From: an uncultured Microbacteriaceae bacterium
Lineage (GTDB): Bacteria; Actinomycetota; Actinomycetes; Actinomycetales; Microbacteriaceae
Direction of reading: 5' to 3'
Length of the DNA stretch: 16,620 nucleotides
NCBI GenBank assembly: GCA_946481135.1
Contig: CAMLMQ010000044.1
Location: 1 to 16,620, forward strand
Below the pieces are notes generated by a model. It saw only the letters and a program-made list of their open reading frames with translations, was not told where the DNA came from and made no database searches. Made by a program: the position numbers and the translations under genes. Below, piece by piece: positions 1 through 14,361 of this stretch. Numbering within the stretch: position 1 is the first letter of the stretch; each line of letters starts with the position of its first letter.

Positions 1-151
1 ACTGCACGGTGACAGTGATGGATGATGTCGTTCCATCGGGATCCGGATCCGGCGGGGAACCCCGCCGGCACTGCGCCCCGGATATGCCGTGGGTCTCGCC
101 GCGCGCAGCATCGACCGGGATCGGTTCGCGCATGGGGAGACGTGTGCGAGA
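1..151. other. Non-coding stretch downstream of the pilus locus
   Basis: No gene here can be supported. The plus-strand reading frames across this stretch run on into antisense of pilO, so they are shadows. The stretch holds a perfect inverted repeat at 49-68 and a tandem pair of the hexamer GGATCC at 39-50. On the minus strand an ATG at 111 or 36 opens a frame that stays open to the left edge (37 or 12 codons). That is too short to judge, and no good ribosome binding site precedes either start. Confidence 0.5.
49..68. terminator. Perfect inverted repeat, possible terminator
   Basis: The arms CCGGCGGGG (49-57) and CCCCGCCGG (60-68) are exact reverse complements separated by AA, so it folds as an 8-bp GC stem with a 4-base loop. 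There is no T-rich tail on either side. It could be a second back-up terminator for the pilus operon, or the terminator of a gene converging from outside the left edge. The strand cannot be decided. Confidence 0.3.
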
Positions 152-189
152 GCACACACCCGGTCGAGTGTAGTCGACCGGGTGTGTGC
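152..189 (-). terminator. Hairpin terminator after pilO
   Basis: The arms GCACACACCCGGTCGA (152-167) and TCGACCGGGTGTGTGC (174-189) match perfectly over 16 bp around a 6-base loop. The hairpin begins 18 bases after the pilO stop codon on the minus strand. The sequence after it is TCTCGC rather than a run of T, which is common for actinobacterial terminators. Position and stem strength make it the likely end of the pilus transcript. Because the stem is symmetrical it could also stop transcripts arriving from the left. Confidence 0.6.
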
Positions 190-207
190 CTGCAATGTGA
201 CGGCGGA

Positions 208-993
208 TTACGGCGTCGGAGTCTCCGTCGGTGTCGGCGTCGGCGTCGCGCCGTCGATCACCTCGTTCGGCGCCTCGCCGTCGCCGCCGAGCCACTCCGG
301 CATCGCCTCTTCGAGGTCGGGCACCTGATAGGTCGTGCCCGGCACCCCGTCGGCGGGGGTCGCGGCGGCCTGGTCGGGGGTCGCGGCGAGCGCGCGGTCG
401 GTGAGCAGGAAGATGTAGCCGCTCACCGTCGCCGAGGGCGTGCCTCCCGTGCCACGACTGAACGACAGATTCTGCACGAGGAAGAGCCTCGGTCCCGACT
501 GGAGGGTGCGCACGGCATCCGTGACGGCCTCGGGCGTTCCCTCGAACGCGATCGTGATCGGCAGCGCGTAGACGGTCCCCGCCGCCGTCGTGAGCGCGGG
601 CCCCCCGGTGCCGCTCGACGTCGTGGTCGCCTCCCCCTCGACGACGGCGCCGCCGAACGGCATCTCGCTCGCGACGTACGACGTGACGGTGATCTCGTGC
701 TGCGCCGCGACGGTCGAGACGTAGGCGGCGAAGAGCTCGGTGCCTTCGTACTCGGGGATGCTGTCCTGCAGCGGGTCGAGCTCGGCGAGGATCTCGTCGA
801 GCCGTTCGAAGTCGGCCTTCATGACCTCCAACTGCGCACGCTGCGCGGCGGTCTGGCCTTCGACTCCGACGCGCTCGGCATCCGCGGTGGACGCCTGGGC
901 GAGGAGCGGCGCGATGCCGAGGAACCATCCGAGGGCGAGGATCGCGGCGATGAGCGCGACGGCGCCCACGGTCCACAGTCGTGACGCGGTCAT
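208..993 (-). CDS. pilO: PilO-like T4P alignment-complex protein
   Basis: Predicted 261-aa bitopic membrane protein that should pair with PilN through its coiled coil and periplasm-like domain, linking cytoplasmic PilM to the pilus base. It has a short cytoplasmic start, one membrane helix at about residues 8-29, a charged heptad-like segment at about 33-80 and a mixed alpha/beta domain at about 85-200. It ends in an acidic and proline-rich tail whose last dozen residues alternate Thr and Pro. Sequence similarity to proteobacterial PilO is weak; the call rests on architecture, size and its place after pilM and pilN. The ATG at 993 overlaps the pilN stop codon (ATGA), indicating translational coupling. 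The TAA stop is followed by a strong hairpin. The Thr-Pro tail is not part of the usual family plan. Confidence 0.75.
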   Translation of the reverse strand: MTASRLWTVGAVALIAAILALGWFLGIAPLLAQASTADAERVGVEGQTAAQRAQLEVMKADFERLDEILAELDPLQDSIPEYEGTELFAAYVSTVAAQHEITVTSYVASEMPFGGAVVEGEATTTSSGTGGPALTTAAGTVYALPITIAFEGTPEAVTDAVRTLQSGPRLFLVQNLSFSRGTGGTPSATVSGYIFLLTDRALAATPDQAAATPADGVPGTTYQVPDLEEAMPEWLGGDGEAPNEVIDGATPTPTPTETPTP

Positions 994-1709
994 CCGTTAC
1001 CCCCTTCGGCCTGGCTCGTCGGTTCGTCGGCGGGCTCGTCGTCCGTTCCGTCGACCGCTGCGGCGAACCGGCCCGACGTCGCGTCGGCGTCGAGCATGAC
1101 GCGCACCACGGTGCGGTACCCGGTCTCGCTGAACGTCGACGAGTCGAAGCGTGCGTCGACGAAGCCCGAGAGCTGCGACAGCCGGGTCGTCGTCGTGACC
1201 GGGTCGACGATGTTGGGTCCGACGAAGGTGAGGGTGAGCGTCGCGAGGCGCGGGGCGCGCAGCGGGCCCTCGACCGAGAGTGCGGGCTCCCACGGCGCCT
1301 GCACGATGACGGTCGCCTCGTCGAGGGTCGTGCCCTCGGGAAGCATCCCGCGGATGTCGTCGAGCACCTGGTCCCACGTGATCTCGTGGGCCGTGACGCC
1401 CTGCTGGGCCGCCCGGATGCCGGTCACGAGGGCCGCGGCGCGCGTCCCCTCCGAGTACTGCGCCTGCTCGGCGAGCACCTCCTGGGTCGCCTGCCGGGCG
1501 AGCTCGAGCTGCATCTGCGCGGTCACGTTGCGCATGAAGGCGTAGGCGTAGCCGCCGCCCACGACGACGAGGGCGAGAACGACGACCATCGCGAGGCGAC
1601 GACGCGTCGCCGCCGCCCGGGCGCGCTCGCGCACCGACTGCGGCAGCAGCTGCACGCGGGGCTCGCCGCCGAGCGGCAGCTTCGGGTCGACGGCCGGCCG
1701 GGCGCTCAT
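990..1709 (-). CDS. pilN: PilN-like T4P assembly protein
   Basis: Predicted 239-aa bitopic protein, the PilM-binding partner in the T4P alignment complex. Near the N-terminus, residues 19-23 read VQLLP, matching the INLLP-type motif by which PilN docks into the PilM groove. An Arg-rich stretch follows, then one membrane helix at about 39-59, a predicted helical segment at about 62-105 and an alpha/beta domain (about 110-205) of PilN/GspL type. The last 25 residues are acidic and low in complexity. The start ATG at 1709 overlaps the pilM stop by 4 bp, and its own stop overlaps the pilO start the same way, so the three proteins are probably made in fixed proportion. The motif plus synteny make the assignment fairly secure. 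Confidence 0.82.
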   Translation of the reverse strand: MSARPAVDPKLPLGGEPRVQLLPQSVRERARAAATRRRLAMVVVLALVVVGGGYAYAFMRNVTAQMQLELARQATQEVLAEQAQYSEGTRAAALVTGIRAAQQGVTAHEITWDQVLDDIRGMLPEGTTLDEATVIVQAPWEPALSVEGPLRAPRLATLTLTFVGPNIVDPVTTTTRLSQLSGFVDARFDSSTFSETGYRTVVRVMLDADATSGRFAAAVDGTDDEPADEPTSQAEGGNG

Positions 1710-2749
1710 GCGTGGCTCCCGAGCGCGAGACCGTACGCGGCGGTGAACGCGTGCTGCCGCGCGGGTTCGACCGCTCCCGCGCCGCGGCTGCGCGACACGG
1801 CCGAGAACGGTTCGGCCACGACGACCGGAAGACCTGTCACCTCGGAGAGCGCGTTAGGCAGGCCGATGAGCTGTGCGCCGCCGCCCGAGAGCAGGATGCG
1901 GCGGGGCATCTCCTCGGGCTTCGCGGAGCCGAAGTACGACAGCGTGCTGCGGATGGCGCCGAGCAGCTCGCCGACGACCTCGTAGATCACCTCGAGCACG
2001 GGACGGTCCTCGGCGCGCAGCATCGGGCCACCCATGCCGACGAGGCGCTTCGCCGCCTCGGCCTGCTCGGGCGGGAGTTGCAGGCGCGCCGCGATCGTGC
2101 GGGTGACGTCGTCGCCTCCGTTCGGGATGGTGCGCACGAAGTGCGGCACGCCGTCGTCGACGACCACGACATCCGTCATCGATGCGCCGATCGAGACGAG
2201 CACGTCCCGACCCTGGGCGGTGCGCCGCGGGGCGAGCGCGCGCGTGAGGGCGAACGCGAGCAGGTCGACGTGCACGGGACGCAGCCCCGCGCCGAGCACC
2301 GCCGACACGTTGGCGTCGACGGCGTCCTTGATCGCCGCGACGAGCATTCCGCGGACGGCGGGACCGTGCTCCCCCGCCTCCTCGGCGATCGGGTAGAAGT
2401 CCAGGAGCGCGTCGCTCACGGGCACGGGCAGCAGGTCCTGCACCTGGAAGGGCAGCGACTCGCGGATCTGGGCGAGCGGTGCCTTGGGCACGCTCAGGTC
2501 GCGCGCGAAGATGCGCGGTCCGCCGAGGCCGAGCACGACATCCTTCGTGCTGAACCGGCCGTTCGCCCACAGGCGGCGCAGCGCGGTCGTGACGGTGCCG
2601 ACCTCGAGCACCTCCCCGCGCCGCACGGACGTGTCGGGCAGCACGATCTCGTGTTGCCGCACGATGGTGGGCTTCGCGGTGTCGTAGCCCGTCACCTCCA
2701 CAGCGCGCACGGCGTTGCTGCCGATGTCGACTCCGACGATGTTCTTCAT
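1706..2749 (-). CDS. pilM: PilM, actin-like cytoplasmic T4P protein
   Basis: Cytoplasmic 347-aa protein of the FtsA/actin-like ATPase fold, the usual length for PilM. It should bind ATP and the N-terminal peptide of PilN, forming the ring beneath the pilus platform. The N-terminal phosphate-1 motif VGVDIGSNAVRAVEV is at residues 5-19. A second phosphate/connect motif (DVLVSIGASMTDVVVVDDG) is at 182-200. The adenosine-type glycine loop LLSGGGAQLIGLP is at 286-298. The C-terminus YGLALGSHA is typical of PilM. The ATG at 2749 is preceded by a GGGGGA ribosome binding site. The gene is first of the pilM-N-O unit, 57 bp after pilD, and a candidate promoter lies in that gap. Confidence 0.93.
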   Translation of the reverse strand: MKNIVGVDIGSNAVRAVEVTGYDTAKPTIVRQHEIVLPDTSVRRGEVLEVGTVTTALRRLWANGRFSTKDVVLGLGGPRIFARDLSVPKAPLAQIRESLPFQVQDLLPVPVSDALLDFYPIAEEAGEHGPAVRGMLVAAIKDAVDANVSAVLGAGLRPVHVDLLAFALTRALAPRRTAQGRDVLVSIGASMTDVVVVDDGVPHFVRTIPNGGDDVTRTIAARLQLPPEQAEAAKRLVGMGGPMLRAEDRPVLEVIYEVVGELLGAIRSTLSYFGSAKPEEMPRRILLSGGGAQLIGLPNALSEVTGLPVVVAEPFSAVSRSRGAGAVEPARQHAFTAAYGLALGSHA

Positions 2750-2781: not shown

Positions 2782-2810
2782 TTTATCGGTGATGACGCGC
2801 GAGGCGTCAG
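2782..2810 (-). promoter_or_regulatory. Candidate promoter for pilMNO
   Basis: On the minus strand a -35-like CTGACG (2810-2805) and a -10-like GATAAA (2787-2782) are separated by exactly 17 bases. Each matches the sigma-70 consensus at four of six positions. The -35 box overlaps the pilD stop codon. Transcription would begin near 2775-2777, giving a leader of about 26 bases with a GGGGGA ribosome binding site before pilM. This is one of the few A/T-rich patches in the locus. It is a pattern match only. Confidence 0.35.
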
Positions 2811-3634
2811 CGGAGCCCGAGGGCCCCGAGGTAGAGGTCGGCGACGGCCGGACCGGCGAGGATGCCGACCCACGCGCCGGCGAGCAGCCACGGCCCGAAA
2901 GCCAGGGACGCCCGGCGTCCCGCGCCGCGGAGCAGCATCACGACGCCCGCACCCCCGCCGAGCAGGAATCCGGCGATGGCGCCGACGGCGAGCGACTCGG
3001 GTCCGAGCCAGCCGAGGAAGAGCCCGAGGGCTCCGGCGAGCTTGACGTCGCCCATGCCCATCGCGCCCGGTCGCGCGACGGCGAGCAGCAGGTAGCACAG
3101 GCCGAGGCCGGCGAGACCGATCGCGGCCGAGAGCAGGTGTTGCCAGAGCCCCGAGGCGAGCGCCGCCCCGGCGAGCAGCGCCGCCCCGACCGGGTACATC
3201 GGCAGCACGAGCGCGTTCGGCAGCCGCTGCGTGTCGAGGTCGATGAGCGCGAGCGCGATGCTCACCGCGGCGAGGTAGAGGAAGGCGACGAGCACGAGGA
3301 TGCCGGCTACGCCGCCGCCGATCGCCCCGGCCGCGAAGGCTCCCGGGATGTCGCCGACGAAGCGCCAGGCGACGAGCCCGAACGCGATCGCCGCGCCGAG
3401 CTCGACGAGCGGGTAGCGGGCCGAGATCGGGGCCGCGCAGTCGCGGCACCGGCCGCGGAGCACGAGCCACGACACGACCGGGATGTTGTCGTACCCCCGC
3501 ACCTCGTGCCCGCACGACCCGCACGCGCTCGGCGGCGACACGATCGACGCGCCGCGCGGCACGCGGTAGACGACGACGTTGAGGAACGACCCGATGAGGG
3601 TGCCCAGCACGCCGAGCGCGGCGATCGCGGCCAT
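2807..3634 (-). CDS. pilD: Prepilin peptidase/N-methyltransferase PilD
   Basis: Polytopic 275-aa aspartic protease (GspO/PilD, peptidase family A24A) that cuts prepilins after the leader glycine and N-methylates the new N-terminus. The N-terminal methyltransferase region (residues 15-80) keeps the fold-stabilising cysteine pairs CGSC (38, 41) and CRDC (63, 66), and the typical IGSFLNVVVYR start. The catalytic aspartates sit in the segment IDLDTQRLPN (Asp132/134) and the GMGDVKLAGALG motif (Asp196). About eight hydrophobic helices are visible. The only sensible start is the ATG at 3634, 2 bp after the stop of the large pilin-like gene, so the two are translationally coupled. It should process all four prepilins encoded upstream. 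Confidence 0.95.
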   Translation of the reverse strand: MAAIAALGVLGTLIGSFLNVVVYRVPRGASIVSPPSACGSCGHEVRGYDNIPVVSWLVLRGRCRDCAAPISARYPLVELGAAIAFGLVAWRFVGDIPGAFAAGAIGGGVAGILVLVAFLYLAAVSIALALIDLDTQRLPNALVLPMYPVGAALLAGAALASGLWQHLLSAAIGLAGLGLCYLLLAVARPGAMGMGDVKLAGALGLFLGWLGPESLAVGAIAGFLLGGGAGVVMLLRGAGRRASLAFGPWLLAGAWVGILAGPAVADLYLGALGLR

Positions 3635-3636
3635 GG

Positions 3637-5376
3637 TCAGTTGCTCTCCGTGACGATGCGGTTCGACACGACGGTGCGGTCGGCCTCGGTGTAGACGACG
3701 GGGGGCGTCGACGGGTCGGGCGACGGGTCCTGCGGCTCCGAAGCGGCCGACTCCCCGGTCGTCAGATTCCAGCCCGGCAGACCGACCGGGGTGAACTTGA
3801 TCTGCGCACCTCCCGCGATGACCGCCTGACCGGCGAAGACCTGCCCGGTGAAGACGGTGCTCGAGCCGATGTTGATCGCGCACGGGCTGTACATCATGAC
3901 GTCGAGCTTGGCGTCGAAGGTGAATCCGCCGGCGACCTGGAACGACTGGTTGGCGCCGCACGTCGGCTGCCTGTCGGCGACCGTGTCGGGGTTGATGAGC
4001 CACAGGCGACGGTCGACGTTCGACGTGAACCCGCCGCTGCCGGCGAGGTTGAACCGGTTGGCGATGATCGCGAGGTCGTTCGTGAGCGCGAGCTTCTGGT
4101 ACGACGAGACCTCGATCGCGTTCGTGCAGTTGCGCGCGTCGATGACGCCGGGGTTGCCGGCGAAGCCGTTCACGATCGACGTGAGCTTCGTGTAGTCGCA
4201 GTTGGTGCCGGCGGGCACGACGTACTCGGTGAAGCCGACCCAGTCCGACGCCGCGTAGGCGAAGTCGACCCAGTCGGCGACGACGGGGCGCGACGGCGCC
4301 GCGTAGGGGCTCGGGCCGGGCGAGTTGGGGCTCGTCGTGGTCGTCGAGCCCGAGACGAGTCCGCTCGACCACTGCGGCACGCTCAGCGTGCGGCTCACGG
4401 CGTTGCCCGCGATGTTGGTGCCCCAGTCGAGCGAGGTGTGCAGCTGCACCCACGTGTTCTTCTTCACCACGGCGCTGCCGGTGAGCCGGAGGTTGCCGCC
4501 CGCGGTCACGTTGACGCCGACCTGCGTCCCGCCGCCGTCGAGGGTGACGTCGCCCGTCGCCCACGCGCTGCCGTTGATCTTGCTCGACCCCGAGACCATG
4601 ATGCTCGCGGCGACGGCGCTGCCGCCGATCGACGGGCCGCCCGAGACCGTGAGCGCCTTGTCGACCCAGACGGTGCCCGTGATGTTGCACGAGCCGTTGA
4701 CGGTGAACGCGCCGCCGTCGATGACCCAGTCGGCCTGCGCGGCGCTGCCGCCCGAGCAAACGACATCCCCGGTCTTGACGAGCACGCTCGGACTGGATCC
4801 GTCGATGGAGACGAGCTTCCCCGCGCCGCCGAACCCGCCGGCGTTGTAGGCGTACACGGCGGGGCCGGACGCGACCAGCGTGACGGGCGGGTTCGTCGGA
4901 GTCGGGTCGGGCGTGGGGGGCGGTGGGGTGAGCGTGCTGAGCACGACCTCGATGTTGGTCTGGTCGCGGGCGCTCACCCCGTCGACGCCCTCGTTCGAGG
5001 CGTAGCCGGTGGAGAGGATGCGGGTCTCGACCGACGTGCTCGCCGGGCAGCCCCGGGCCCACACGCCCGAGACCTTCGTCCAGATCGTCGCGACGTACTC
5101 GGGCACGGCGCCCGTGGCGCTCGCGTAGCGCCCGGAGGTCGAGGTGCACGTGCCGCTCACGAGTCCGTTACGGGCGGCGGCGACTCCGGCCTCGGCGGCG
5201 GCCTGCGACTGCACGCCCGCGCGCACCGAGGTCGTCACGCCCGTCGCGGTGACCACCGACGACGCGACGACCGCCGTGAGCACGACGCCCACCGCCATGA
5301 GACCGACGACGGCGCTCAGCGCCACACCCTCGTCGTTGCGAACCAGCTCCCGCATCCTGCGCGTCAGTCCCAGCAC
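3637..5376 (-). CDS. Large PilX/GspK-like protein with beta-rich ectodomain
   Basis: A 579-aa predicted surface protein. The first 17 residues are a basic leader ending NDEG, followed by a membrane helix (18-45) and the PilX-type segment AAAEAGVAAARNGL (59-72). A first globular part extends to about 150, then a Pro/Thr linker (150-166). Residues 200-310 are rich in short Gly/Val/Thr/Ser strands, suggesting a beta-solenoid, and a last domain spans about 365-535. Eight cysteines fall in four near pairs (77/110, 207/230, 393/417, 473/499). If PilD cuts after Gly17, position +5 is Ala instead of Glu, as in GspK-type tip pseudopilins. The GTG start at 5376 is preceded by AAGGAGG at 9-base spacing and overlaps the previous gene by 13 bp; an ATG at 5355 is a less likely start. 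Tip adhesin is an inference. Confidence 0.72.
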   Translation of the reverse strand: MLGLTRRMRELVRNDEGVALSAVVGLMAVGVVLTAVVASSVVTATGVTTSVRAGVQSQAAAEAGVAAARNGLVSGTCTSTSGRYASATGAVPEYVATIWTKVSGVWARGCPASTSVETRILSTGYASNEGVDGVSARDQTNIEVVLSTLTPPPPTPDPTPTNPPVTLVASGPAVYAYNAGGFGGAGKLVSIDGSSPSVLVKTGDVVCSGGSAAQADWVIDGGAFTVNGSCNITGTVWVDKALTVSGGPSIGGSAVAASIMVSGSSKINGSAWATGDVTLDGGGTQVGVNVTAGGNLRLTGSAVVKKNTWVQLHTSLDWGTNIAGNAVSRTLSVPQWSSGLVSGSTTTTSPNSPGPSPYAAPSRPVVADWVDFAYAASDWVGFTEYVVPAGTNCDYTKLTSIVNGFAGNPGVIDARNCTNAIEVSSYQKLALTNDLAIIANRFNLAGSGGFTSNVDRRLWLINPDTVADRQPTCGANQSFQVAGGFTFDAKLDVMMYSPCAINIGSSTVFTGQVFAGQAVIAGGAQIKFTPVGLPGWNLTTGESAASEPQDPSPDPSTPPVVYTEADRTVVSNRIVTESN

Positions 5377-5951
5377 GTCGTGCCCCCTCCTTGGCTGCCG
5401 CTCATGGCGGCGGTGAACTGAATGGCCGTCGGCTCGTTGCGGTCGTCAGACGCGACCTCGAAGCCGACTTCGATCGTGCCGCCGACGGGCGGTCCGAAGA
5501 CATCCGTGGACCCGGAGCGCGGCGTCACGCCGCTCAGCAGGAGCGCCCACGACGCGACGTCGCTCGGGCGGGCCGGCAGCGCGGTCGATCCGGCGACGGG
5601 CCACGTGGTCGCCCGCAGCTCCTGCTCGTCGCGGGCGAAGTACCAGGCGCGGCAGCTGAAGCTCGCGGCGCTTCCGGCTCCCGCGATGCGGGCGATGAGC
5701 AGTTGGTCGTGCCCGTCGACCGTCGTGAGCCGGAACTCGGCGGCGTTGCGCACCTGGGTGCGGATGCCGTCGGCCGCCGTCTGCGCGCTCGTGGTGGCGT
5801 CGCTGATCGCCGTGACCGAGCGCTGCGTGAGCGTCGTGCTGACCATGAGCCCGCCGACGGCGAGCAGGATGATGCTGAGCACCGCCGTCGCGACGGCGAG
5901 CTCGACGAGCGTGAACCCCTCGTCGTCGCGCAGCAGCCGCGGGCCGCTCAT
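5364..5951 (-). CDS. Minor prepilin, PilW/GspJ-like
   Basis: Predicted 195-aa minor pilin. A 12-residue leader ends DDEG and is followed by the class III prepilin motif FTLVEL, with Glu at mature position 5 (residue 17) and a hydrophobic helix to about residue 38. The globular part contains two cysteines (100 and 193) that may form a disulfide. Size and second place among the minor pilins fit PilW/GspJ. The ATG at 5951 overlaps the stop of the PilV-like gene (ATGA), and its own end overlaps the start of the large PilX-like gene by 13 bp, so the three are coupled. Pilus initiation or a tip complex is the likely role, by analogy to GspI-J-K. Confidence 0.8.
   Translation of the reverse strand: MSGPRLLRDDEGFTLVELAVATAVLSIILLAVGGLMVSTTLTQRSVTAISDATTSAQTAADGIRTQVRNAAEFRLTTVDGHDQLLIARIAGAGSAASFSCRAWYFARDEQELRATTWPVAGSTALPARPSDVASWALLLSGVTPRSGSTDVFGPPVGGTIEVGFEVASDDRNEPTAIQFTAAMSGSQGGGTTCWD
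5386..5392 (-). promoter_or_regulatory. Strong Shine-Dalgarno deciding the GTG start
   Basis: On the minus strand AAGGAGG lies 9 bases before GTG at 5376, inside the last codons of the upstream PilW-like gene. It is among the best ribosome binding sites in the window. It supports the GTG rather than the downstream ATG at 5355, which has no comparable site at the right distance. Confidence 0.7.
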
Positions 5952-6346
5952 GGCAGGTAGACCAGGGTCGAGGCCGCCGCGAGTTGGTCGGTGACGACCC
6001 CGTCCTCGACGAGCCGGGCGGTCGCGGTGACCGCGTAGGTGCCCCGGCCGGCGGTGCAGTCCTGCACGGTCGTCGTGATGTCGACCTCCTGGCCGCGCGG
6101 GTCGGTCTCGCGGCCGCTCGAGGCGACGAGCGTGAGCGCCGAGCACGACGTGGCCGCCTGGGCGAGGTTCATGCGCTCGGCGACGAGCTGCGTCGCGAAC
6201 GCCTGGGTCGAGTTGGTCGCCGACTGCTTGAGTCCCGTGATGAGCACGGGCAGGAAGGCGATCGCGAGCGTCGCGAGGATCAGCATCGACACGACGGCCT
6301 CGACGAGGCCGAAGCCCTCGTCGTCCGTGAGTGCGGTGGTGTTCAT
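5948..6346 (-). CDS. Minor prepilin, PilV/GspI-like
   Basis: Predicted 132-aa minor pilin. The 11-residue leader ends DDEG. The mature N-terminus reads FGLVEAVVSMLILATLAIAF, keeping Glu5 (residue 16) but with Gly instead of Thr at position 2, as often seen in PilV/GspI-type proteins. Cysteines at 68 and 97 could form a disulfide. A small globular domain of about 85 residues follows the helix. The ATG at 6346 is preceded by a strong purine-rich site (GGGAGGGGGGG on the minus strand). The stop overlaps the next minor pilin gene by 4 bp. It lies downstream of the hairpin that follows the major pilin, so it may be expressed at a lower level. Confidence 0.8.
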   Translation of the reverse strand: MNTTALTDDEGFGLVEAVVSMLILATLAIAFLPVLITGLKQSATNSTQAFATQLVAERMNLAQAATSCSALTLVASSGRETDPRGQEVDITTTVQDCTAGRGTYAVTATARLVEDGVVTDQLAAASTLVYLP

Positions 6347-6437: not shown

Positions 6438-6860
6438 TTAGCCCGCGGCGCAGGCGGAGTTGCTCGGCTCACTCGCCGTCGACGACAGGCTCCACGCGCC
6501 GTCGCCCGTGCCGGTCTGAAGGCAGAATGCCGTCCCACCGGCGGCGATGGAGACGCTTCCGTCCTGCGGGAAGCCGAGCTCCTCGAGGTCGGCAAGCACG
6601 GTGTCGGACACCGGAAGAGTCACGCCGGCCTCATTCGAGACGAGGTACGCGGTGTAGGCGATCTTCGCGTTGGCGAGGTTGGCCTTCGCGGCCGCCTCCT
6701 GCGCCTGCGCCTGCTGACCCAGGAAGACCGGGATCGCGATGGCGGCGAGGACGCCGATGATGAGGATGACGACGAGCAGCTCGATGAGCGTGAAGCCCTT
6801 GTCGTCGTTCTTCAGCTCCGCCTTCTTGGCGCCGAGCTTCGTGTGCAGTGCAGCAATCAT
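6438..6860 (-). CDS. pilA: Major type IV pilin (PilA-like prepilin)
   Basis: Predicted 140-aa prepilin and probable main pilus subunit. The 22-residue Lys-rich leader ends NDDKG and is followed by FTLIELLVVILIIGVLAAIA, a textbook class III N-terminal helix with Glu5 (residue 27) and the helix-bending Pro22 (residue 44). A short Ala/Gln/Lys helix and a small globular domain follow, with two cysteines (113 and 137) that likely close a C-terminal disulfide loop. Mature length is about 118 residues, at the small end for T4a pilins. ATG at 6860 is chosen; an in-frame ATG at 6872 would add four residues and overlaps the AAGGA ribosome binding site. It stands alone between hairpins, consistent with separate, higher expression. 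TAA stop. Confidence 0.93.
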   Translation of the reverse strand: MIAALHTKLGAKKAELKNDDKGFTLIELLVVILIIGVLAAIAIPVFLGQQAQAQEAAAKANLANAKIAYTAYLVSNEAGVTLPVSDTVLADLEELGFPQDGSVSIAAGGTAFCLQTGTGDGAWSLSSTASEPSNSACAAG

Positions 6861-6897: not shown

Positions 6898-6969
6898 CCC
6901 CCCAATAAATGACCCCCCACCAACGATGGTGGGGGGTGCGTTAGCACTGCGGAATCCCGCAAAGGGGGG
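6898..6969 (-). promoter_or_regulatory. Structured pilin leader with alternating C6/G6 tracts
   Basis: Reading the minus strand, the leader holds CCCCCC at 6969-6964 and 6936-6931, then GGGGGG at 6918-6913 and 6903-6898. Either C tract can pair with either G tract, so mutually exclusive stems are possible. The best is 6912-6937 (see that entry). A small inverted repeat GCGG/CCGC lies at 6949-6960. No convincing promoter was found in the 175-bp gap between pilC and the pilin. It may act as an attenuator or mRNA processing region, but this is inferred from the sequence pattern. Confidence 0.45.
6912..6937 (-). terminator. Hairpin with T-rich tail before the pilin
   Basis: The arms ACCCCCCACC (6912-6921) and GGTGGGGGGT (6928-6937) pair perfectly around a 6-base loop. 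On the minus strand the stem is followed by CATTTATTG, the most T-rich tail of any hairpin here, so it resembles an intrinsic terminator. It sits only 51 bases before the pilin ATG. That leaves little room for a promoter in between, so an attenuator role or a 5' stabiliser is also possible. Confidence 0.55.
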
Positions 6970-7035: not shown

Positions 7036-8265
7036 TTACTGCACGTACTGGAAGATCGAGAACATCGGCATGTAGAGCGCCGTGATCATGCCGCCGATGA
7101 TGACCCCGATGACCCCGATCATGAGCGGCTCGATGAGGCTCGTGAGCTGCTCGGTCGTCGCCTGCACCTCTTCGTCGTAGAAGTCGCCGATCTTGCCGAG
7201 CATCAGCTCGAGCGACCCGGCATCCTCGCCGACCGCGATCATCTGCACGACCATCGGCGGAAAGACCGGCTCCTCGCCGAGCGGGCCGGCGATCGATCGG
7301 CCCGAACGCACCGAGTCCTGAACCTTGCGGATCGCCTGCTCGACGACCCAGTTGCCCGACGTGTCGGCGACGACGGCGAGCGCCTGCAGGATGGGCACGC
7401 CCGACTTCGTGAGCGTCGAGAAGTTGCGGGCGAACCGGGCGATCGCGATCTTCTTCATGAGCAGCCCGAAGACCGGCAGCCGCAGACGCAGCGGGTCGAC
7501 CTTCGCGCGCACCTCGTCGCGGTACTTGTTGCGACTCCACCAGACGGCGCCGACGATGCCGGCGACGACGAGCACCGGCAGCATCCAGACCATGTTCTCG
7601 CTCAGCACGACGAGCACCTGGGTCGGCAGCGGCAGTTCGCCCCCGAGGTCGGCGAACATGTTCTTGAAGATCGGCACGATGAAGATGAGCATCGCGATGA
7701 CCGCGACGATCGCCATGACGAGCACGACGATCGGGTAGGTGAGCGCCGACTTGATGGTCTGACGCAACTTCACGTCGGCCTCGAACATCTTCGCGATCGA
7801 CTCGAGCGACTGGTCGAGGAAGCCGCCGACCTCGCCCGCCCGAACGAGGTGGATCATGATCGGCGGGAACATCGTGCCCTGCCGCGCGAAGGCCTCCGAG
7901 AGCGCCGAGCCCGTCTCAACCTGGCCGCGGATCGCCGTGAGGGCGCGCGCCAGCTTCTTGTTCTCAGTCTGTCCCGCGAGGATCGTCAGCGCCCGCAGCA
8001 ACGACAGGCCCGACGACACCATGGTCGCGAGTTGCCGCGACATGACGGCGAGGTCCTTGAGCCCGACGCCCTTCTCGAGGAACCCGAGGTTGAGCTCGGT
8101 CTGCAGGCCGGACCCGCCGACCGACTCGGAGATCTCGATCGGACTGAGCCCCATCGTGCGGAGACGGCTGACGACCGCCGCCTCGCTCGACGCCTCGACC
8201 TTGCCCTTGACGAGCTTGCCGGCGGCATCCCGGCCCTTGTAGGCGTACGTGGTGGGCATCGACAT
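7036..8265 (-). CDS. pilC: PilC, T4P inner-membrane platform protein
   Basis: Polytopic 409-aa platform protein (GspF/PilC family), the standard length, through which PilB and PilT couple ATP hydrolysis to pilin insertion and removal. The N-terminal YAYKGRDAAGKLVKGKVEA is typical. Two T2SSF cytoplasmic domains are visible at about residues 70-190 and 275-395, each with the family pattern of a LATMVSSGLSLLRAL or FSTLTKSGVPILQAL segment and a GE.GG or GEDAG turn. Membrane helices lie at about 175-200, 225-243 and 377-400. The ATG at 8265 is 1 bp after the pilT stop, with GAGG seven bases upstream; an in-frame ATG at 8259 is an alternative. TAA stop, followed by hairpins. Confidence 0.95.
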   Translation of the reverse strand: MSMPTTYAYKGRDAAGKLVKGKVEASSEAAVVSRLRTMGLSPIEISESVGGSGLQTELNLGFLEKGVGLKDLAVMSRQLATMVSSGLSLLRALTILAGQTENKKLARALTAIRGQVETGSALSEAFARQGTMFPPIMIHLVRAGEVGGFLDQSLESIAKMFEADVKLRQTIKSALTYPIVVLVMAIVAVIAMLIFIVPIFKNMFADLGGELPLPTQVLVVLSENMVWMLPVLVVAGIVGAVWWSRNKYRDEVRAKVDPLRLRLPVFGLLMKKIAIARFARNFSTLTKSGVPILQALAVVADTSGNWVVEQAIRKVQDSVRSGRSIAGPLGEEPVFPPMVVQMIAVGEDAGSLELMLGKIGDFYDEEVQATTEQLTSLIEPLMIGVIGVIIGGMITALYMPMFSIFQYVQ

Positions 8266-8266
8266 G

Positions 8267-9790
8267 TCAGAGCCTCGATCCGAACTCGGGGTTGAGCGAG
8301 GCGCCCGCCGAGGTGTCGGTCGTGCGGTGCACGAGCCGCTTGAAGTCCTCGGGGTCGTGCACCTTCTCGATGGCGGCGCCGTAGGTGATCTCGCCGCGGT
8401 TGACGAGGTCGGCGAGATGCTGGTCCATGGTGTGCATCCCGCTCGCCCGCCCCGCCTGCAGGGCCGAGCGGATCTGGTAGGTCTTGCCCTCGCGGATGAG
8501 GTTGGCGATCGCGGGCGTCGCGACGAGGATCTCGGTCGCGACCGCGCGCCCCTTCCCGCCGGCCTTCTTCACGAGCGTCTGGCACACGACGCCCTGGAGC
8601 GTCGCGGCGAGCTGGGTGCGCACCTGGCCCTGCTGGTGGGGCGGGAAGACGTCGATGACGCGGTCGATCGTCTGGCCGGCATCCTGCGTGTGCAGCGTCG
8701 CGAAGACGAGGTGACCGGTCTCGGCCGCGGTGAGGGCCACCGAGATCGTCTCCAGATCGCGCAGCTCCCCGATGAGGATGACGTCGGGGTCCTGACGCAG
8801 CACGTGCTTGAGCGCGTTCGCGAACGACTGGGTGTCGGCGCCGACCTCGCGCTGGTTGACGAGCGCCTTCTTGTTCGGATGGATGAACTCGATCGGGTCC
8901 TCGACCGTCACGATGTGGTCGGCGCGCGTCGTGTTGACGAGGTCGATGAGCGCCGCGAGGGTCGTCGACTTGCCCGAGCCGGTGGGCCCCGTCACGAGCA
9001 CGAGGCCACGCGGCAGCTGCCCGAAGTTCGCCACCGACTCGGGGATGCCGAGCGCGGTGAGCGGCTTGATCTCGGTCGGGATGAGACGGAACGCCGCACC
9101 GACCGCGCCGCGCTGCAGATAGAAGTTGACGCGGAAACGCGACTCCTCCGAGAGCGTGAACGCGAAATCGAGCTCGAGCACCTCGTCGAAGTAGGCCCGC
9201 TGCTCGTCGCTCAGCAGCGAGTACAGGGCCGCGGCGACGCGCTCCCGGTCCCAGACGTCCTGACCCGGCACGGGACGGAGCGCGCCATCGATGCGAATCA
9301 TGGGCGTCGAGCCGGCCGAGATGTGCAGGTCGGAGCCCCCCTCGGTGACGACGCACTCGAGGCTGTAGAGCAGGTCGTTGTCGACCTTGGCGCGCGCGGC
9401 GACCGTGTAGTCGTCGGCGACGAAGGCCGGCTTGGCCGACTCCTCGTAGCGGCGACTCGGCGGCGGCAGCACCTCGAAGTCGGGCACGGCGGGAATCACC
9501 TGCGGCGTCGTCGTCTCGGCGGCGGGCGGCGGGATGTCGGGCATGCGCAGCCCCATGCCGGTCGGGGCCGGGGTGAAGCCGGGGATGGCCCCCGGGGCAG
9601 CGGACGGGGGAGCCGGGGTCGACGGGTCGACGCTCGCGACCGCGGGGGGCGGTAGGTGCGAGAGGTCGACGGGCGCCGACCCCGGCGGCTGCGGCGGCGG
9701 CGCGGCCGGAGGCGGCGCGGCGGCCCCGGGCACCCCGAGCGGCGGATTCGCCGGGTCGGTGACCGGAATCTCATAGAGCGGCTTGTTCAC
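8267..9790 (-). CDS. pilT: PilT, retraction ATPase with Pro-rich N-terminal extension
   Basis: Hexameric secretion ATPase (GspE/PilT family) that powers pilus retraction. Walker A GPTGSGKST is at 268-276, the Asp box VEDPIEF at 296-302, Walker B ILIGELRD at 338-345 and the His box TGHLVFATLHTQDA at 358-371. AIANLIRE at 427-434 matches the AIRNLIRE motif specific to PilT. The SDLHIS motif (153-158) opens the PilT N-terminal domain. At 507 residues it is well beyond the usual 345-370, because residues 1 to about 130 form an extension very rich in Pro and Ala. It lacks the zinc cysteines found in PilB. The start is GTG at 9790, with GGAGG six bases before it, 30 bp after pilB. It shares the pilB-T-C unit. 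Confidence 0.95.
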   Translation of the reverse strand: MNKPLYEIPVTDPANPPLGVPGAAAPPPAAPPPQPPGSAPVDLSHLPPPAVASVDPSTPAPPSAAPGAIPGFTPAPTGMGLRMPDIPPPAAETTTPQVIPAVPDFEVLPPPSRRYEESAKPAFVADDYTVAARAKVDNDLLYSLECVVTEGGSDLHISAGSTPMIRIDGALRPVPGQDVWDRERVAAALYSLLSDEQRAYFDEVLELDFAFTLSEESRFRVNFYLQRGAVGAAFRLIPTEIKPLTALGIPESVANFGQLPRGLVLVTGPTGSGKSTTLAALIDLVNTTRADHIVTVEDPIEFIHPNKKALVNQREVGADTQSFANALKHVLRQDPDVILIGELRDLETISVALTAAETGHLVFATLHTQDAGQTIDRVIDVFPPHQQGQVRTQLAATLQGVVCQTLVKKAGGKGRAVATEILVATPAIANLIREGKTYQIRSALQAGRASGMHTMDQHLADLVNRGEITYGAAIEKVHDPEDFKRLVHRTTDTSAGASLNPEFGSRL

Positions 9791-9820: not shown

Positions 9821-11491
9821 CTAGGCGACGACACGGAGGATCTCCTCGATCGACGTCAGCCCGAGCAGCACCTTGGCCCACCCGTCCTGACGCAGCGTCT
9901 TCATGCCCTGGTCGATCGCAACCCGCCCGATCTCGGCACTCGACGCCCGGGCGACGGCGAGGCGCTCGATCTCCTCGGTGACGGGCATGACCTCGTGCAG
10001 CGCGATGCGCCCGCGGTATCCGGTGTGCGAGCACGACGGGCAGCCGACGGCGCGGTAGATGGTGGGCACGCCGCCGTCCGACGGGAAGCGCAGGGCCTGC
10101 AGTTCGTCGGGCGCGTGCTGGTAGGGCTCCTTGCACCGGTCGCAGAGCCGGCGGGCGAGACGCTGGGCGACGATGCAGTCGAGCGCCGAACCCACGAGGA
10201 AGGGCTCGATCCCCATCTCGGTGAGTCGGGTCACGGCGGAGGGCGCGTCGTTGGTGTGCAGGGTGCTCAGCACGAGGTGCCCGGTGAGTGCCGCCTCGAT
10301 CGCGATCTGCGCCGTCTCGTGGTCGCGGATCTCACCGAGCAGCACGACATCCGGGTCGGAGCGGAGGATGCTGCGCAGCGCACTCGCGAAGGTCAGACCC
10401 GCCTTGGGGTTCACCTGCACCTGGTTGATGCCGGGGATGCGGTACTCGACCGGGTCCTCGACGGTGATGACGTTGATCTCGGGACGGGCGACCTCATGCA
10501 GCGTCGTGTAGAGGGTCGTCGACTTGCCCGAGCCGGTCGGGCCGGTGACGAGGATCATCCCGTAGGGCTTCGAGTACGACGTCTTGTACACGGCGGCGTT
10601 GCGGTCGAGCAGCCGCAGCTGATCCATCCCGAGCCCCGTCATCGAGTTGTCGAGGATTCGCATGACGACCTTCTCGCCGAACACCGTCGGCAGGGTCGCG
10701 ACGCGCAGGTCGATCTGCTTGCCGCCGTGGATGACGCTCATGCGCCCGTCCTGCGGCTTGCGGCGCTCGGCGATGTCGATGTCCGACATGATCTTGAGCC
10801 GCGAGATCACGCCGTTCTGGATGTTCTTCGGCGCGCGCTGCATCTCGTGCAGGACACCGTCGATGCGGTAGCGCACGCTCATGTCGCGCTCGGCGGGCTC
10901 GATGTGGATGTCGGACGCGTGGTCGGCGATCGCCTGGCTGATGAGCAGGTTGACGAACCGTACGATCGGCGCGTCGTCTTCGGCGGGCTCCTCGGCGACG
11001 GGCACGAGGCTGCTCGCCGACGACCCTTCGTTCTCCTTGACGATCGCCGTCGTGAGTTCGCTCAGCTCTCCGTCGGAGCGCACGAAGCGCCCGATCGCGG
11101 CGAGGAGGTCGCTGCGCTCGGCGACGACGGGACGCACCTGGAGGCTCACCGCGGCGCGCACGTCGTCGAGAGCGAGCACATCCCGGGGGTCGGCCATCGC
11201 GAGCAGCAGCCGGTCGCCGTCCCGCCCGATCGGCAGCACCTCGTGGCGGCGCAGCAGTTGCGGCGCGACGAGGGCGACGGCGCTGCGCTCGACCGGATAC
11301 TCGGTCAAGTCGACGAACGGCAGCCCGAGCTGTGCGGCGCGCGCCGACGCGACCTGACTCTCGGTGACGACGCCGCCCTCGACGAGCTCACGCACGTGCG
11401 CCTCGTCGCCGGCCGGGTCGGTCGAGGCGACATCCAGGCTCGTGATCGGCATGAGGCCGCGGATGACGAGGATCTCAGACAGGGAGGTCAT
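9821..11491 (-). CDS. pilB: PilB, pilus extension ATPase
   Basis: Cytoplasmic 556-aa assembly ATPase (GspE/PilB family) that drives pilus polymerisation through PilC. The N-terminal GSPII_E_N-type domain spans about residues 30-140 (GGVVTESQVASARAAQLGLP). The ATPase core follows, with SDIHIEP at 193-199, Walker A GPTGSGKST at 317-325, Asp box VEDPVEY at 344-350, Walker B VLLGEIRD at 383-390 and His box TGHLVLSTLHTNDAPSAV at 403-420. Four cysteines (450, 453, 484, 487) in CDRC and CPSC form the zinc site that separates PilB/GspE from PilT. ATG at 11491 is chosen, five bases after GGAGG; ATG 11494 and GTG 11497 lie too close to that site. It is the first gene of the pil locus, 88 bp after the upstream membrane protein gene. 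Confidence 0.95.
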   Translation of the reverse strand: MTSLSEILVIRGLMPITSLDVASTDPAGDEAHVRELVEGGVVTESQVASARAAQLGLPFVDLTEYPVERSAVALVAPQLLRRHEVLPIGRDGDRLLLAMADPRDVLALDDVRAAVSLQVRPVVAERSDLLAAIGRFVRSDGELSELTTAIVKENEGSSASSLVPVAEEPAEDDAPIVRFVNLLISQAIADHASDIHIEPAERDMSVRYRIDGVLHEMQRAPKNIQNGVISRLKIMSDIDIAERRKPQDGRMSVIHGGKQIDLRVATLPTVFGEKVVMRILDNSMTGLGMDQLRLLDRNAAVYKTSYSKPYGMILVTGPTGSGKSTTLYTTLHEVARPEINVITVEDPVEYRIPGINQVQVNPKAGLTFASALRSILRSDPDVVLLGEIRDHETAQIAIEAALTGHLVLSTLHTNDAPSAVTRLTEMGIEPFLVGSALDCIVAQRLARRLCDRCKEPYQHAPDELQALRFPSDGGVPTIYRAVGCPSCSHTGYRGRIALHEVMPVTEEIERLAVARASSAEIGRVAIDQGMKTLRQDGWAKVLLGLTSIEEILRVVA

Positions 11492-11497
11492 CATCAC

Positions 11498-11579: not shown

Positions 11580-12008
11580 CTAGGAGCCGCGTCCCCGGTG
11601 CGACAGTCCCGCGTTGGGGGGTCGGCCCATCACGAGCCGCGTGAGGAGCACGGCGACACCGGCAAGCAGCGCCCTCGCGATCACGAACGGACTCGTCGCC
11701 TGCTCGGCGAAGAGTTCGAACGAGACGAGGAGGGCGGCGGCCGCGACCGCGAGGTAGACGAGGGCCGTGGTGGCGACGGCGGTCGGCCAGGCGACCGCCG
11801 CGCGGACGCCGAACGCGACACCGAGCCACACGACGACTCCGGCGACGGCGAAGCCGACGAGTCCGACCCAGACGGGCGCAGGGGTCGTGATCGGGTCGCG
11901 GTCGAGCAGCACGGCGAGGAGCCCCGCTACGGCGAAGGTCGACGCGGCCCAGGTGATCGCGACGAAGAGCGCGACGAGGAGGCTAGACCCGAGGGGTGGA
12001 CGCTCCAT
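11580..12008 (-). CDS. Small four-helix membrane protein, function unknown
   Basis: A 142-aa protein I do not recognise. Four hydrophobic helices are visible at about residues 8-35, 46-68, 77-98 and 107-128, with a short basic tail. The segment ATSPFVIA at 104-111 also occurs in the preceding gene product, and the stretch before it aligns loosely, so the two look like diverged paralogues. The ATG at 12008 has GGGAAGG upstream and overlaps the end of the previous gene by 26 bp, which implies translational coupling. A longer in-frame start upstream would run deep into that gene and is less likely. It is the last gene before pilB. No enzyme motif is visible, so no function is proposed. Confidence 0.75.
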   Translation of the reverse strand: MERPPLGSSLLVALFVAITWAASTFAVAGLLAVLLDRDPITTPAPVWVGLVGFAVAGVVVWLGVAFGVRAAVAWPTAVATTALVYLAVAAAALLVSFELFAEQATSPFVIARALLAGVAVLLTRLVMGRPPNAGLSHRGRGS

Positions 12009-12690
12009 CGGCGGCCTTCCCGGCCTGCTCCGCGTCGAAGGCCTCACGCTCGGCGCGGTGGCGCGCCGTGAGGCGCTGCCCGCGGCGCGCGATGAGCAGC
12101 CCGACCCAGATCGCGACCTCGCGGGCGACGACCGCGGCGGCGATCACGAACGGGCTCGTCGCGACGGCCGCGAAGCCGGGGCTCGCCCCGACGATGCCGG
12201 TGACGAGAAGCAGCATCCCCACCGCGCCCAGGTAGGTGACGATCGCGACGACGAGACTGCCGAGCACATGCGCCCACCACGCCGCGCGATTCACGAGCAA
12301 CACGACGAGCACGAAGCCGATCGTGAAGAAGAGCACCGGGATCCAGAAGATCGCGTCGGTGAGGAAGTCGGCGATCGTGAGGCCGCCGGTGCCGCGCAGG
12401 GCGATCATCGCCGCGCCGACGAGGCCGTACAGCACGGCGAACAGCACCGCGCCGGCGAGGGCGAGCAGCGATCCGACGAGCCGGTTGCTCGGAGCCTGCG
12501 GCGGCAGCGGGGAGCTCACGTAGACGACGCGCTCGCCGCCGAGCGGGGACGACACCTTTTCGTCGGTGAGGGTCGCGGTGGCGGTCGGCGCCTCGGAGGT
12601 CGGAGCCTCCTCGACGACGATCTCGTCCTCCTCGACGACGATCTCCTCGTCGGGCTGCGACTGCGGGGACTCGTCCTTCGCCTGGGCCAT
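11983..12690 (-). CDS. Membrane protein with acidic N-terminal domain, function unknown
   Basis: A 235-aa protein I do not recognise. Residues 1-65 are polar and strongly acidic and include a 7-residue tandem repeat (EIVVEED then EIVVEEA). Four membrane helices follow at about 71-98, 110-133, 138-165 and 178-201. The C-terminal 35 residues are charged and probably cytoplasmic. ATSPFVIA at 177-184 is shared with the next gene product. ATG at 12690 is chosen because it lies 10 bp after the phosphatase stop; only a weak AGG ribosome binding site is seen. The frame stays open further upstream, but that part is antisense-like shadow over the phosphatase gene. It probably belongs to one operon with the FHA and PP2C genes. 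Function unknown. Confidence 0.75.
   Translation of the reverse strand: MAQAKDESPQSQPDEEIVVEEDEIVVEEAPTSEAPTATATLTDEKVSSPLGGERVVYVSSPLPPQAPSNRLVGSLLALAGAVLFAVLYGLVGAAMIALRGTGGLTIADFLTDAIFWIPVLFFTIGFVLVVLLVNRAAWWAHVLGSLVVAIVTYLGAVGMLLLVTGIVGASPGFAAVATSPFVIAAAVVAREVAIWVGLLIARRGQRLTARHRAEREAFDAEQAGKAADGASTPRV
12608..12645 (-). repeat. 21-bp tandem repeat coding for acidic heptapeptides
   Basis: The 17-base string TCCTCGACGACGATCTC occurs at 12608-12624 and again at 12629-12645, a period of 21 bases. It is in frame with the membrane protein gene and encodes the duplicated EIVVEE units of its acidic N-terminal segment. Two near-perfect copies suggest a recent slippage duplication. Confidence 0.7.
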
Positions 12691-12700
12691 GCCGCACAGC

Positions 12701-13420
12701 CTATCGGCGCGCCGGGAGGGTGTCGTCGAGGTCGTCGACGAGGGTCGTGGCAGGCGAGGCGACGACGTCGACCACGAGCGCCGTGATGTTGTCGCGGCCC
12801 CCGCGGCGCTTCGCCTCGTCGACGAGCGCGTGGGCGGCATCCTCGGGGTCGGGGGCGCCCTCCAGCACTGCACGGATGACGTCGTCGTCGACCTCGGAGT
12901 GCACCCCGTCGGAGCACACGAGCAGCCGCTCCCCCGCGACGACGGGCAGCATCCAGCTGTCGGCGAGGCTGTCGGCGGCGCCGATCGCACGCGTGATGAC
13001 GTGGCCGCCGAGGGAGTGGTCGACGGTGAGCTGCTCGAGGCGGCCGTGCGCGAACCGGTAGACGCGGGAGTCGCCGACGTTGACGACGAGCCAGTGCGGC
13101 GCGTCGTCGTGACGCACGAGGATCGCGGCGGCGACCGTGCTGCCCGCGCCGCGCAGCGTGCCGGCGGAGAGTGCTCCGACGCGGGCGTCGGCCTCGCGCA
13201 GCGCATCGCGCACGTGGGAGACGTCGGCGAACCCGGACTCGGGCAGGTGGTCGCGGAAGGCGGCGACGACGGTCGCGGAGGCGAGATCCCCCGCGTCGTG
13301 CCCGCCCATCCCGTCGGCCACGACGAACCCCGGGCTGCGGGCCAGGAGGGAGTCCTCGTTGACCGCGCGGCGGAGCCCCGGGTCGGTGGCCGCGCCGACG
13401 GCCAGGCGTACGTCGGTCAT
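12701..13420 (-). CDS. PP2C-type Ser/Thr protein phosphatase
   Basis: A 239-aa soluble PPM/PP2C phosphatase (PstP/Stp type) that should remove phosphate from Ser/Thr residues using two Mn or Mg ions. Family motifs appear in order: NEDS at 21-24, VADGMGGHDAG at 34-44 (metal-binding Asp36), GSTVAAAI at 93-100, VVNVGDSRVYRF at 112-123, LTVDHS at 131-136, VCSDGV at 168-173 (Asp171) and GGRDNITALVV at 207-217 (Asp210). All metal ligands are present, so it should be active. Unlike mycobacterial PstP it has no membrane helix. The ATG at 13420 overlaps the FHA gene stop by 4 bp, tying it to the FHA protein. Its natural partner would be a Ser/Thr kinase, which is not in this window. Confidence 0.95.
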   Translation of the reverse strand: MTDVRLAVGAATDPGLRRAVNEDSLLARSPGFVVADGMGGHDAGDLASATVVAAFRDHLPESGFADVSHVRDALREADARVGALSAGTLRGAGSTVAAAILVRHDDAPHWLVVNVGDSRVYRFAHGRLEQLTVDHSLGGHVITRAIGAADSLADSWMLPVVAGERLLVCSDGVHSEVDDDVIRAVLEGAPDPEDAAHALVDEAKRRGGRDNITALVVDVVASPATTLVDDLDDTLPARR

Positions 13421-14361
13421 GCGTCCCCCTCGTCGGCGAGGATGCGGACGGCGACGCGTCCGAGCAGCACCCGTTCGACGACCGGGGCGGTCTCGCCCGG
13501 GTCGAGCAGCCGCTCGGCACCGTGCTCGTCGACGACGATCACGCCGTTCGTCGCGTGCAGGTCGGTGATCGTCCAGCGCCCGTCGGCGAAGTCGAGACGC
13601 GCGTGCACCTTCGACAGGGTGCGGGTCGGGTCGGGGAGCTCGAGCTCGACGGCTCCACCACCCGCCCCGAGCGGTCGACGGCCGAGCACGACCCGATCGC
13701 CCGCGAGCGGCAGGCGCGGGCCGCCCTCGACCTGGAGCGACCAGGATGCCGCAGGTCGCCGCTCGACGACGACGGTGCGTTCGACGGGGTCGGGGTCGAC
13801 GGCAGGGGGTGGCGTGAGAAGCCCCGGCGGCGGCACGATGCGCTCGGCCGGTGCGGCGGGCACGAATGGCACTCCGCCGGCGGGCGGCAGGATTCGGGCG
13901 GGCGGCTCGATCGCCGACGTCGGGTTCGTCGCGGGGGCGTGGGACACGTCCGCCCCGGCCGCCGATGCCGCCCACGCGGCGGTCTGCGCGACGCGCGAGT
14001 CGCGACCCGCATCCGTCGCCGCCCCGGCGAGCAGCGTCGCCCACACCGGCGGTGCGAGCACGGCGAGCACGGTCGCGCCGGCCCCCCGGCCGAAGTGCGC
14101 GTTGAGCCGGGACGCGGCGACCCCGACGAGGGCGAGACCGACGAGCTGCACGACCGGCACGATCAGCAGCACCGCGGCGACCGGCGGCACACCGCCGAGG
14201 CGCAGCACCTCCGCCTGGTTGAGCAGCGGTACCCACGCGCGCCATCCGTCGGCCCCGAGCCGCTCGAGCACGCGGCCGAGCATGACCGCGTACCAGACGT
14301 GCAACGCGACGACGACGAGCACCGCCGCCACGACGAGCGGTGTCGGATCGGTCACGCGCAT
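13417..14361 (-). CDS. Membrane-anchored FHA-domain protein
   Basis: A 314-aa protein with an N-terminal membrane part and a C-terminal forkhead-associated domain that binds phosphothreonine peptides. Hydrophobic helices lie at about 9-28, 60-83 and 95-113. The connecting GWRAWVPLLN (39-48) resembles small multi-pass proteins of the DUF5684 kind. A proline-rich linker spans about 140-195. The FHA domain (213-310) keeps the key residues: Gly227-Arg228, Ser250 with His253, and Asn272-Gly273. The ATG at 14361 follows a GAGGGGGG site; a GTG at 14355 is possible. It is the first gene after the rpoC terminator and is coupled to PP2C by a 4-bp overlap. It probably recruits phosphorylated proteins to the membrane. 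Confidence 0.88.
   Translation of the reverse strand: MRVTDPTPLVVAAVLVVVALHVWYAVMLGRVLERLGADGWRAWVPLLNQAEVLRLGGVPPVAAVLLIVPVVQLVGLALVGVAASRLNAHFGRGAGATVLAVLAPPVWATLLAGAATDAGRDSRVAQTAAWAASAAGADVSHAPATNPTSAIEPPARILPPAGGVPFVPAAPAERIVPPPGLLTPPPAVDPDPVERTVVVERRPAASWSLQVEGGPRLPLAGDRVVLGRRPLGAGGGAVELELPDPTRTLSKVHARLDFADGRWTITDLHATNGVIVVDEHGAERLLDPGETAPVVERVLLGRVAVRILADEGDA

Follow-up and report, generated by a model that had tools for sequence, protein, structure and literature searches.

A 16,620-nucleotide stretch of DNA from an uncultured Microbacteriaceae bacterium (contig CAMLMQ010000044.1; hereafter the window) carries a monoderm type IVa pilus (T4aP) operon, in which the gene of a 579-aa candidate tip prepilin, here named BIG (3637..5376, reverse strand), stands between the gene for a PilW-like minor prepilin and pilD. 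BIG is probably the tip-capping minor pilin of this actinobacterial pilus and would carry an exchangeable, ligand-binding solenoid head. The computed properties on which this reading is based are the gene and its cleavage site, the absence of a glutamate at position +5 after cleavage (Glu5), the operon position, the predicted fold, the occurrence in pilus-bearing genomes and the other heads found in relatives.

A prepilin family without Glu5

The reading frame of BIG, identified by open reading frame analysis and modelled with AlphaFold2, begins with a GTG codon, immediately 5' of which lies AAGGAGGGGG. Its leader peptide (residues 1-17, 5326..5376; all features of BIG lie on the reverse strand) ends in NDEG, with the prepilin peptidase site before V18, so that NDEG is followed by VALSAVVGLM and the mature protein is predicted to begin with V1 A2 L3 S4 A5 V6. 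As in class III leaders, a glycine precedes the hydrophobic helix. The original prediction of a 579-aa protein with an NDEG leader, Ala at +5 and a PilX-type AAEAG segment is thereby borne out: residue 17 is Gly, VALSA follows, and QAAAEAG occupies residues 58-64. In the alignment of relatives (A2; 119 rows, window protein included), the cleavage glycine is kept in all 112 rows having a residue there and eight cysteines in 112 to 119 of the 119 rows. Position +5 holds Ala in 103 rows, Ser in five, Gly in four, Val in two, and Thr, Met and Pro (P0120) in one each, with two gaps and no Glu.

Relatives of BIG were found at 37 genome loci and in 166 database proteins at E<=1e-3, the latter scored only among the 7991 candidates sharing most words. 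Across the 37 loci (36 genomes), Glu at +5 is found in none of the BIG proteins versus 33/33 PilV-like, 33/34 PilW-like and 33/33 major pilin proteins, where loci without a hit (four, three and four, respectively) stand outside the denominators. The single PilW-like exception, L008, was read by extrapolation upstream of the match. The absent Glu5 is therefore the rule in the relatives, beyond chance, and the family shares with GspK/PilK tip subunits the lack of this residue while the co-encoded minor pilins have it. A Pfam profile scan gave no N_methyl match in BIG. The available passages of a published modular-pilin survey describe it as anchored on IPR012902 and call such pilins probably underestimated (PMC8179133); given this anchor and the missing N_methyl match, proteins lacking the GFxxxE motif, those of the BIG class included, would probably escape it.

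Occurrence was analyzed in 199 genomes from the family of the Pseudolysinimonas yzui genome (locus L003). PilC is present in 99 of them (E<=1e-30), full-length BIG in 43 (E<=1e-20) and a match to the BIG profile in 66 (E<=1e-3). All 43 genomes with full BIG fall within the 99 PilC genomes, the lists being compared by eye, and the remaining 23 matches are short, 14 of them N-terminal (model start 2-10, end by 113) and nine in the bactofilin-like part described below. BIG thus occurs only in pilus-bearing genomes of this sample. The name of one relative, P0149, refers to a genome of Candidatus Nanopelagicaceae, and the BIG family therefore extends beyond Microbacteriaceae.

Profile scans link the N-terminus of BIG to GspK. 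With the NCBIfam GspK model, matches were obtained in 12 of 32 relatives (best E 2.2e-4) and in 13 of 18 from a more diverse set (best E 1e-6). The matches sit at the profile start in the members listed and none comes near the cut-off; the window protein itself (E 0.041) scores 13.4 against the required 130 bits, by its N-terminus only. Over whole genomes, BIG is the top match in 18 of the 33 matching genomes, as judged by coordinates, and another protein in the rest; nine of 14 control genomes match as well, which makes the model no clean marker of BIG. Pfam PilX_N matches one of the 32 and four of the 18 relatives.

Predicted fold and its counterparts

In the AlphaFold2 models, BIG starts with a long pilin helix alpha-1 (residues 18-74, 5155..5325), which includes QAAAEAG and corresponds to GspK profile positions 2-60. 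It packs on an antiparallel pilin sheet (residues 83-146, 4939..5130), an arrangement typical of the pilin fold and in line with the VIA structure matches. A Pro/Thr-rich linker, evident from the sequence (residues 150-168, 4873..4929), is modelled with lower confidence (pLDDT 61 for residues 151-160 and 78 for residues 161-170) and leads into a beta-solenoid ectodomain (residues 170-545, 3742..4869). The solenoid contains a variable number of bactofilin-like coils (residues 221-330, 4387..4716) and is followed by a last strand (residues 569-575, 3652..3672), placed where ComZ has its last pilin strand. The ectodomain of more than 500 residues claimed in the original prediction is accordingly not one head; outside the membrane helix the model has a small pilin sheet, a solenoid of ~380 residues and the last strand. 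When the pilin domain alone was compared, the best six VIA matches were minor pilins, pseudopilins or ComZ, with modest Z scores of 6.8 to 5.0, led by PilA of Streptococcus sanguinis, ComZ, and the Xcp and EpsI minor pseudopilins. The earlier proposal of a GspK/PilX-like tip protein thus gains support from the GspK and PilX_N matches, the modelled helix and sheet, these fold matches, and a review and a paper on Glu5-less caps. According to their available sections, the tip complex consists of minor pilins under a cap subunit without Glu5, and assembly begins there (PMC10191384, PMC9934059).

The likeness to GspK holds for the N-terminus but not for the large module. Both proteins are large and lack Glu5, share a sequence match over helix 1 and are encoded after I- and J-like genes, and GspK caps a tip complex in the source passages at hand. 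GspK carries a helical domain between strands 3 and 4, whereas in the BIG model the pilin sheet has no such domain and a tapirin/ComZ-like beta-solenoid precedes the last strand. ComZ of Thermus thermophilus (PDB 6qvi) is the only match, among the matches listed by VIA, to cover pilin domain, solenoid and last strand, with residues 52..578 of the BIG model aligned to 10..527 of the ComZ chain. The overall rmsd is 7.9, and domain angle or coil layout therefore differ between the two. ComZ also belongs to a diderm host, serves as a DNA receptor, was missed as a prepilin by PilFind while BIG has the usual cleavage site, and is not matched to BIG by sequence profile. It has Gly at +5, and a structural argument has been made that it fits only at the tip (PMC6561018).

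The best fold match among those listed is tapirin, a cellulose adhesin of Caldicellulosiruptor (PDB 4wa0, 6n2b, 6n2c; NF051896), and the BIG model shows the C-terminal beta-solenoid fold that characterizes tapirins. The family name, reference titles and accessible passages describe tapirin as a cellulose-binding attachment protein. Tapirins come from Bacillota thermophiles, and no sequence similarity between the tapirin and BIG solenoids was detected. The tapirin model matches two of the 18 more distant relatives (best 0.0047) and, at E<=1, 11 of the 36 genomes, where the best six matches are BIG N-termini (profile 16-69 of 660). This N-terminal match is not specific: four of 14 control genomes, Thermus composti included, match too, as does one of five lectin-type tips (E 0.059); the cut-off of 600 bits is reached in none of the 36 relative genomes and the window protein has no listed match at E<=1. 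On the sequence side, there is a hint, and no more, that tapirins may begin with a GspK-type helix.

In S. sanguinis, another monoderm with T4aP, the pilins PilB and PilC carry a large module and were proposed as tip adhesins, PilC with a lectin module, in the parts of the literature consulted; there, PilC retains Glu5 and the modules come after the pilin domain.

Several relatives of BIG are named "cytoskeletal protein CcmA (bactofilin family)" or "polymer-forming cytoskeletal protein" in databases, and PF04519 matches 17 of the 32 relatives (best 3.9e-9) and seven of the 18 more distant ones. The notion suggested by these names, a cytoplasmic bactofilin forming a cytoskeletal polymer, has a vanishingly small probability in view of the prepilin leader, the membrane helix, the eight conserved cysteines, the pilus operon and the co-occurrence with PilC. 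The window protein stays below the gathering cut-off (10.2 vs 27.9 bits), and the likeness is limited to part of a larger solenoid that belongs to a predicted surface pilin. If BIG is a tip pilin, as we think, the database naming is misleading.

The solenoid itself varies in length mainly in one part. The segment C230-W369, which contains the bactofilin-like coils, spans 129-140 residues in 90 of the 119 rows, 170-188 in 26 and 204 or 245 in three, and ranges from 17 to 243 residues in the more diverse 18-member set (A3). W369-G541 is less variable (165-186 residues in the 119 rows, 170-195 in the 18-member set). The steps of ~36-40 residues match whole coils of ~18 residues, a coil size taken by eye from strand spacing in the model, and one part of the solenoid therefore seems to gain and lose whole coils. 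Such variability would be tolerated if BIG were a purely structural tip initiator with the solenoid as a spacer or shield lacking an outside ligand, and minor pilin tip complexes do start assembly in the systems covered by the accessible literature. We nevertheless consider this improbable, because the solenoid resembles known binding solenoids and a lectin type takes its slot at five sister loci.

Other heads in the slot before pilD

Among the 56 PilC-positive genomes without full BIG, 54 stretches were fetched and 50 were long enough to read. The last prepilin before PilD lacks Glu5 in 49 of these 50 sister loci and has a mature length of 492-980 aa; in the remaining locus, L081, the tip gene was not recognised. 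The +5 residue of the 49 proteins is Met (16), Thr (8), Ser (7), Val (6), Leu (4), Ala (3), Ile (3) or Asn (2). Local profiles assign their ectodomains to a class 2 module in 41 loci, a lectin type in five and a distant solenoid in three, the last matching the A3 ectodomain profile with E 7e-48 (L059), 1.7e-8 (L066) and 2.4e-15 (L090). For the class 2 ectodomain (A8, A10; loci within L038-L091), scans of nine proteins and the A8 profile gave no clear sequence relative in Pfam or PDB. The lectin-type proteins (L055, L067, L069, L072, L091) share about 42-51 percent full-length identity. All but L067 match Pfam Ricin_B_lectin (E 1.4e-10 to 1.1e-14), and QxW motifs, which mark ricin-type repeats, are present in all five. 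The earlier reading of the large ectodomain as a probable adhesin is supported, with one addition: in relatives, this slot holds different heads.

Profile comparisons indicate what the different tips have in common. The A3 profile aligns with class 2 over 66 N-terminal columns only (P 96.6, E 6.9e-10) and with the lectin type over 157 columns spanning helix and pilin sheet (P 95.4, E 2e-8), whereas the control comparisons with neighbours that have Glu5 score lower (PilV-like P 72, E 3.4e-5; PilW-like P 20, E 1e-3). Class 2 against the lectin type is also weaker (P 78, E 1.8e-5), little above class 2 against PilV-like proteins (P 66, E 5.6e-5). The links of the solenoid type to class 2 and to the lectin type are therefore better supported than that between class 2 and the lectin type. 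Of the 41 class 2 tips, 40 (all but L058) are accompanied by a long prepilin of 380-530 aa that has Glu5; none of the five lectin types and none of the three distant solenoids has one, and among the 37 solenoid loci it is found in three (L013, L014, L019), each time beyond 18 kb of the stretch and with a second pilus gene set. This head-linked prepilin fits a PilV-like subunit touching the tip subunit, but the same pattern would arise from shared descent of whole operons.

The most telling hint of a role of the slot in sugar binding is the head of ricin-lectin type. This head also bears on whether BIG is instead a ComZ-like DNA receptor at the same tip position, its solenoid binding DNA in natural transformation. 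That ComZ alone, among the matches listed, spans all parts of BIG speaks for this, and ComEC (PF03772) is encoded in 34 of the 36 genomes behind the BIG loci; since ComEC is present in 195 of the 199 family genomes, its presence is uninformative on BIG. The best fold match to a cellulose adhesin and the lectin group in the slot of five sister loci argue against DNA as ligand. So does the acidic ectodomain (window pI 4.63; net positive in 13 of 119 rows), a weak point given that ComZ binds DNA although its solenoid shows no positive patches. Collectively, we regard a DNA receptor as unlikely, although less so than a mere spacer, and prefer a tip adhesin.

Operon context and proposed role

The pilus genes, all on the reverse strand, are ordered PilB, PilT-like, PilC, pilin, PilV-like, PilW-like, BIG, PilD, PilM, PilN-like and PilO-like, so that BIG follows the PilV-like and PilW-like genes as originally described. 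The minor prepilins at the GspI and GspJ positions, PilV-like (5948..6346) and PilW-like (5364..5951), were assigned by profile scans and have Glu5, as does the major pilin (6438..6860; N_methyl 2e-10), whose start was picked by eye, the scans having used 6438-6857. The BIG start overlaps the PilW-like stop by 13 nt, and 2 nt separate the BIG stop from the ATG of PilD (2807..3634), a prepilin peptidase with methylase domain (A24_N_bact 3.1e-35, Peptidase_A24 4.6e-15). Further genes encode the platform protein PilC (7036..8265; T2SSF 1.8e-63), the extension ATPase PilB (9821..11497; T2SSE 5.3e-139, MshEN 6.9e-22) and a second ATPase (8267..9790; T2SSE 8.3e-48), which we take to be PilT-like from sequence and gene order, the scans not separating PilT from PilB. 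PilM (1706..2749) matches PilM_2 (1.9e-36) and TIGR01175 above cut-off, whereas the PilN-like (990..1709) and PilO-like (208..993) proteins were named by position, with weak matches to a PilM-complex model (0.0034) and a GspM-type profile (0.0021). Of the relatives' 37 loci, 34 have a PilW-like gene and 35 have PilD and/or PilM downstream.

The GspI/J/K-like gene order and GspK-like N-terminus, together with a pilin domain as similar to Xcp and Eps pseudopilins as to pilins, would also suit the tip subunit of a type II-like secretion pseudopilus. We judge this very unlikely: there are two T2SSE-type ATPases, one of them PilT-like, the lineage is monoderm as judged from named relatives, and no secretin was detected among the 16 window proteins scanned, a search that did not extend to the rest of the genome.

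Several other features of these loci were observed. In the window, the gap between PilC and pilin holds an 11-pair stem-loop followed by a T-rich tail (6912-6937, reverse strand), terminator-like by pattern only. rpoC (14473-16611) neighbours the pilus cluster on the side of PilB (9821-11497), and many of the 37 loci likewise have rpoC followed by PilB. Between these two genes, at 11580-14361, a PP2C-type phosphatase and an FHA/DUF5684 protein are encoded, along with two others that have no Pfam match at E<=0.001; these genes possibly have a regulatory role. The Cryobacterium stretches L012, L013, L014, L017, L019, L027, L031 and L034 contain pilus genes of an additional cluster, with a second BIG-like match in L013 and L017, and L011 and L014 lie ~40 kb apart on the same contig. 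The BIG match is broken into two pieces in L008 and L036, which may reflect either a sequencing error or a real break. In L037 (Microbacterium fluvii), the locus is rearranged, PilB lies on the opposite strand and the tip prepilin is a distant one of 658 aa.

From the computed properties we infer docking, tip position, ligand, use of retraction and past head exchange. PilD would cut BIG after Gly17, and the helix and small pilin sheet would dock on the PilV-like and PilW-like proteins at the GspI and GspJ positions. Placed first together with these two, and followed by the pilin, BIG would start and cap the fibre, because without Glu5 it could not pair with a further subunit above it. The solenoid, probably inserted ahead of the last pilin strand in the manner of ComZ, would stand out from the tip and bind a ligand. 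This is most likely a polysaccharide-type surface, given that tapirin is described as a cellulose-binding attachment protein and that a lectin type occupies the slot in five relatives; DNA is a less likely ligand. Extension by PilB and retraction by PilT would then draw the cell towards the surface to which the tip is bound. The head appears exchangeable: on what would be the same stalk, sister species bear an unrelated module or a lectin of ricin-B type.

Large modular pilins, ComZ and GspK are already known, and for modular pilins and PilC/PilY1 of other systems a swapping of modules has been suggested, as far as the consulted passages go. Our literature search found no report, for actinobacterial T4aP, of a modular tip slot that lacks Glu5 and takes exchangeable heads. 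The chances seem about even that actinobacterial T4aP loci reserve the last prepilin slot before pilD for such a tip pilin, that ComZ, tapirins and the BIG family form one wider class of solenoid tip pilins, and that GFxxxE-anchored searches miss the whole class. Were this so, tapirins too would be pilus-tip proteins, and one architecture would connect a Thermus DNA receptor, a Caldicellulosiruptor cellulose adhesin and environmental actinobacteria. BIG provides a concrete tip-adhesin candidate for a monoderm actinobacterial T4aP, along with a testable rule (large, without Glu5, last before pilD), and suggests modular swapping of tip heads on a common stalk, in a class that would go unnoticed in motif-based surveys.
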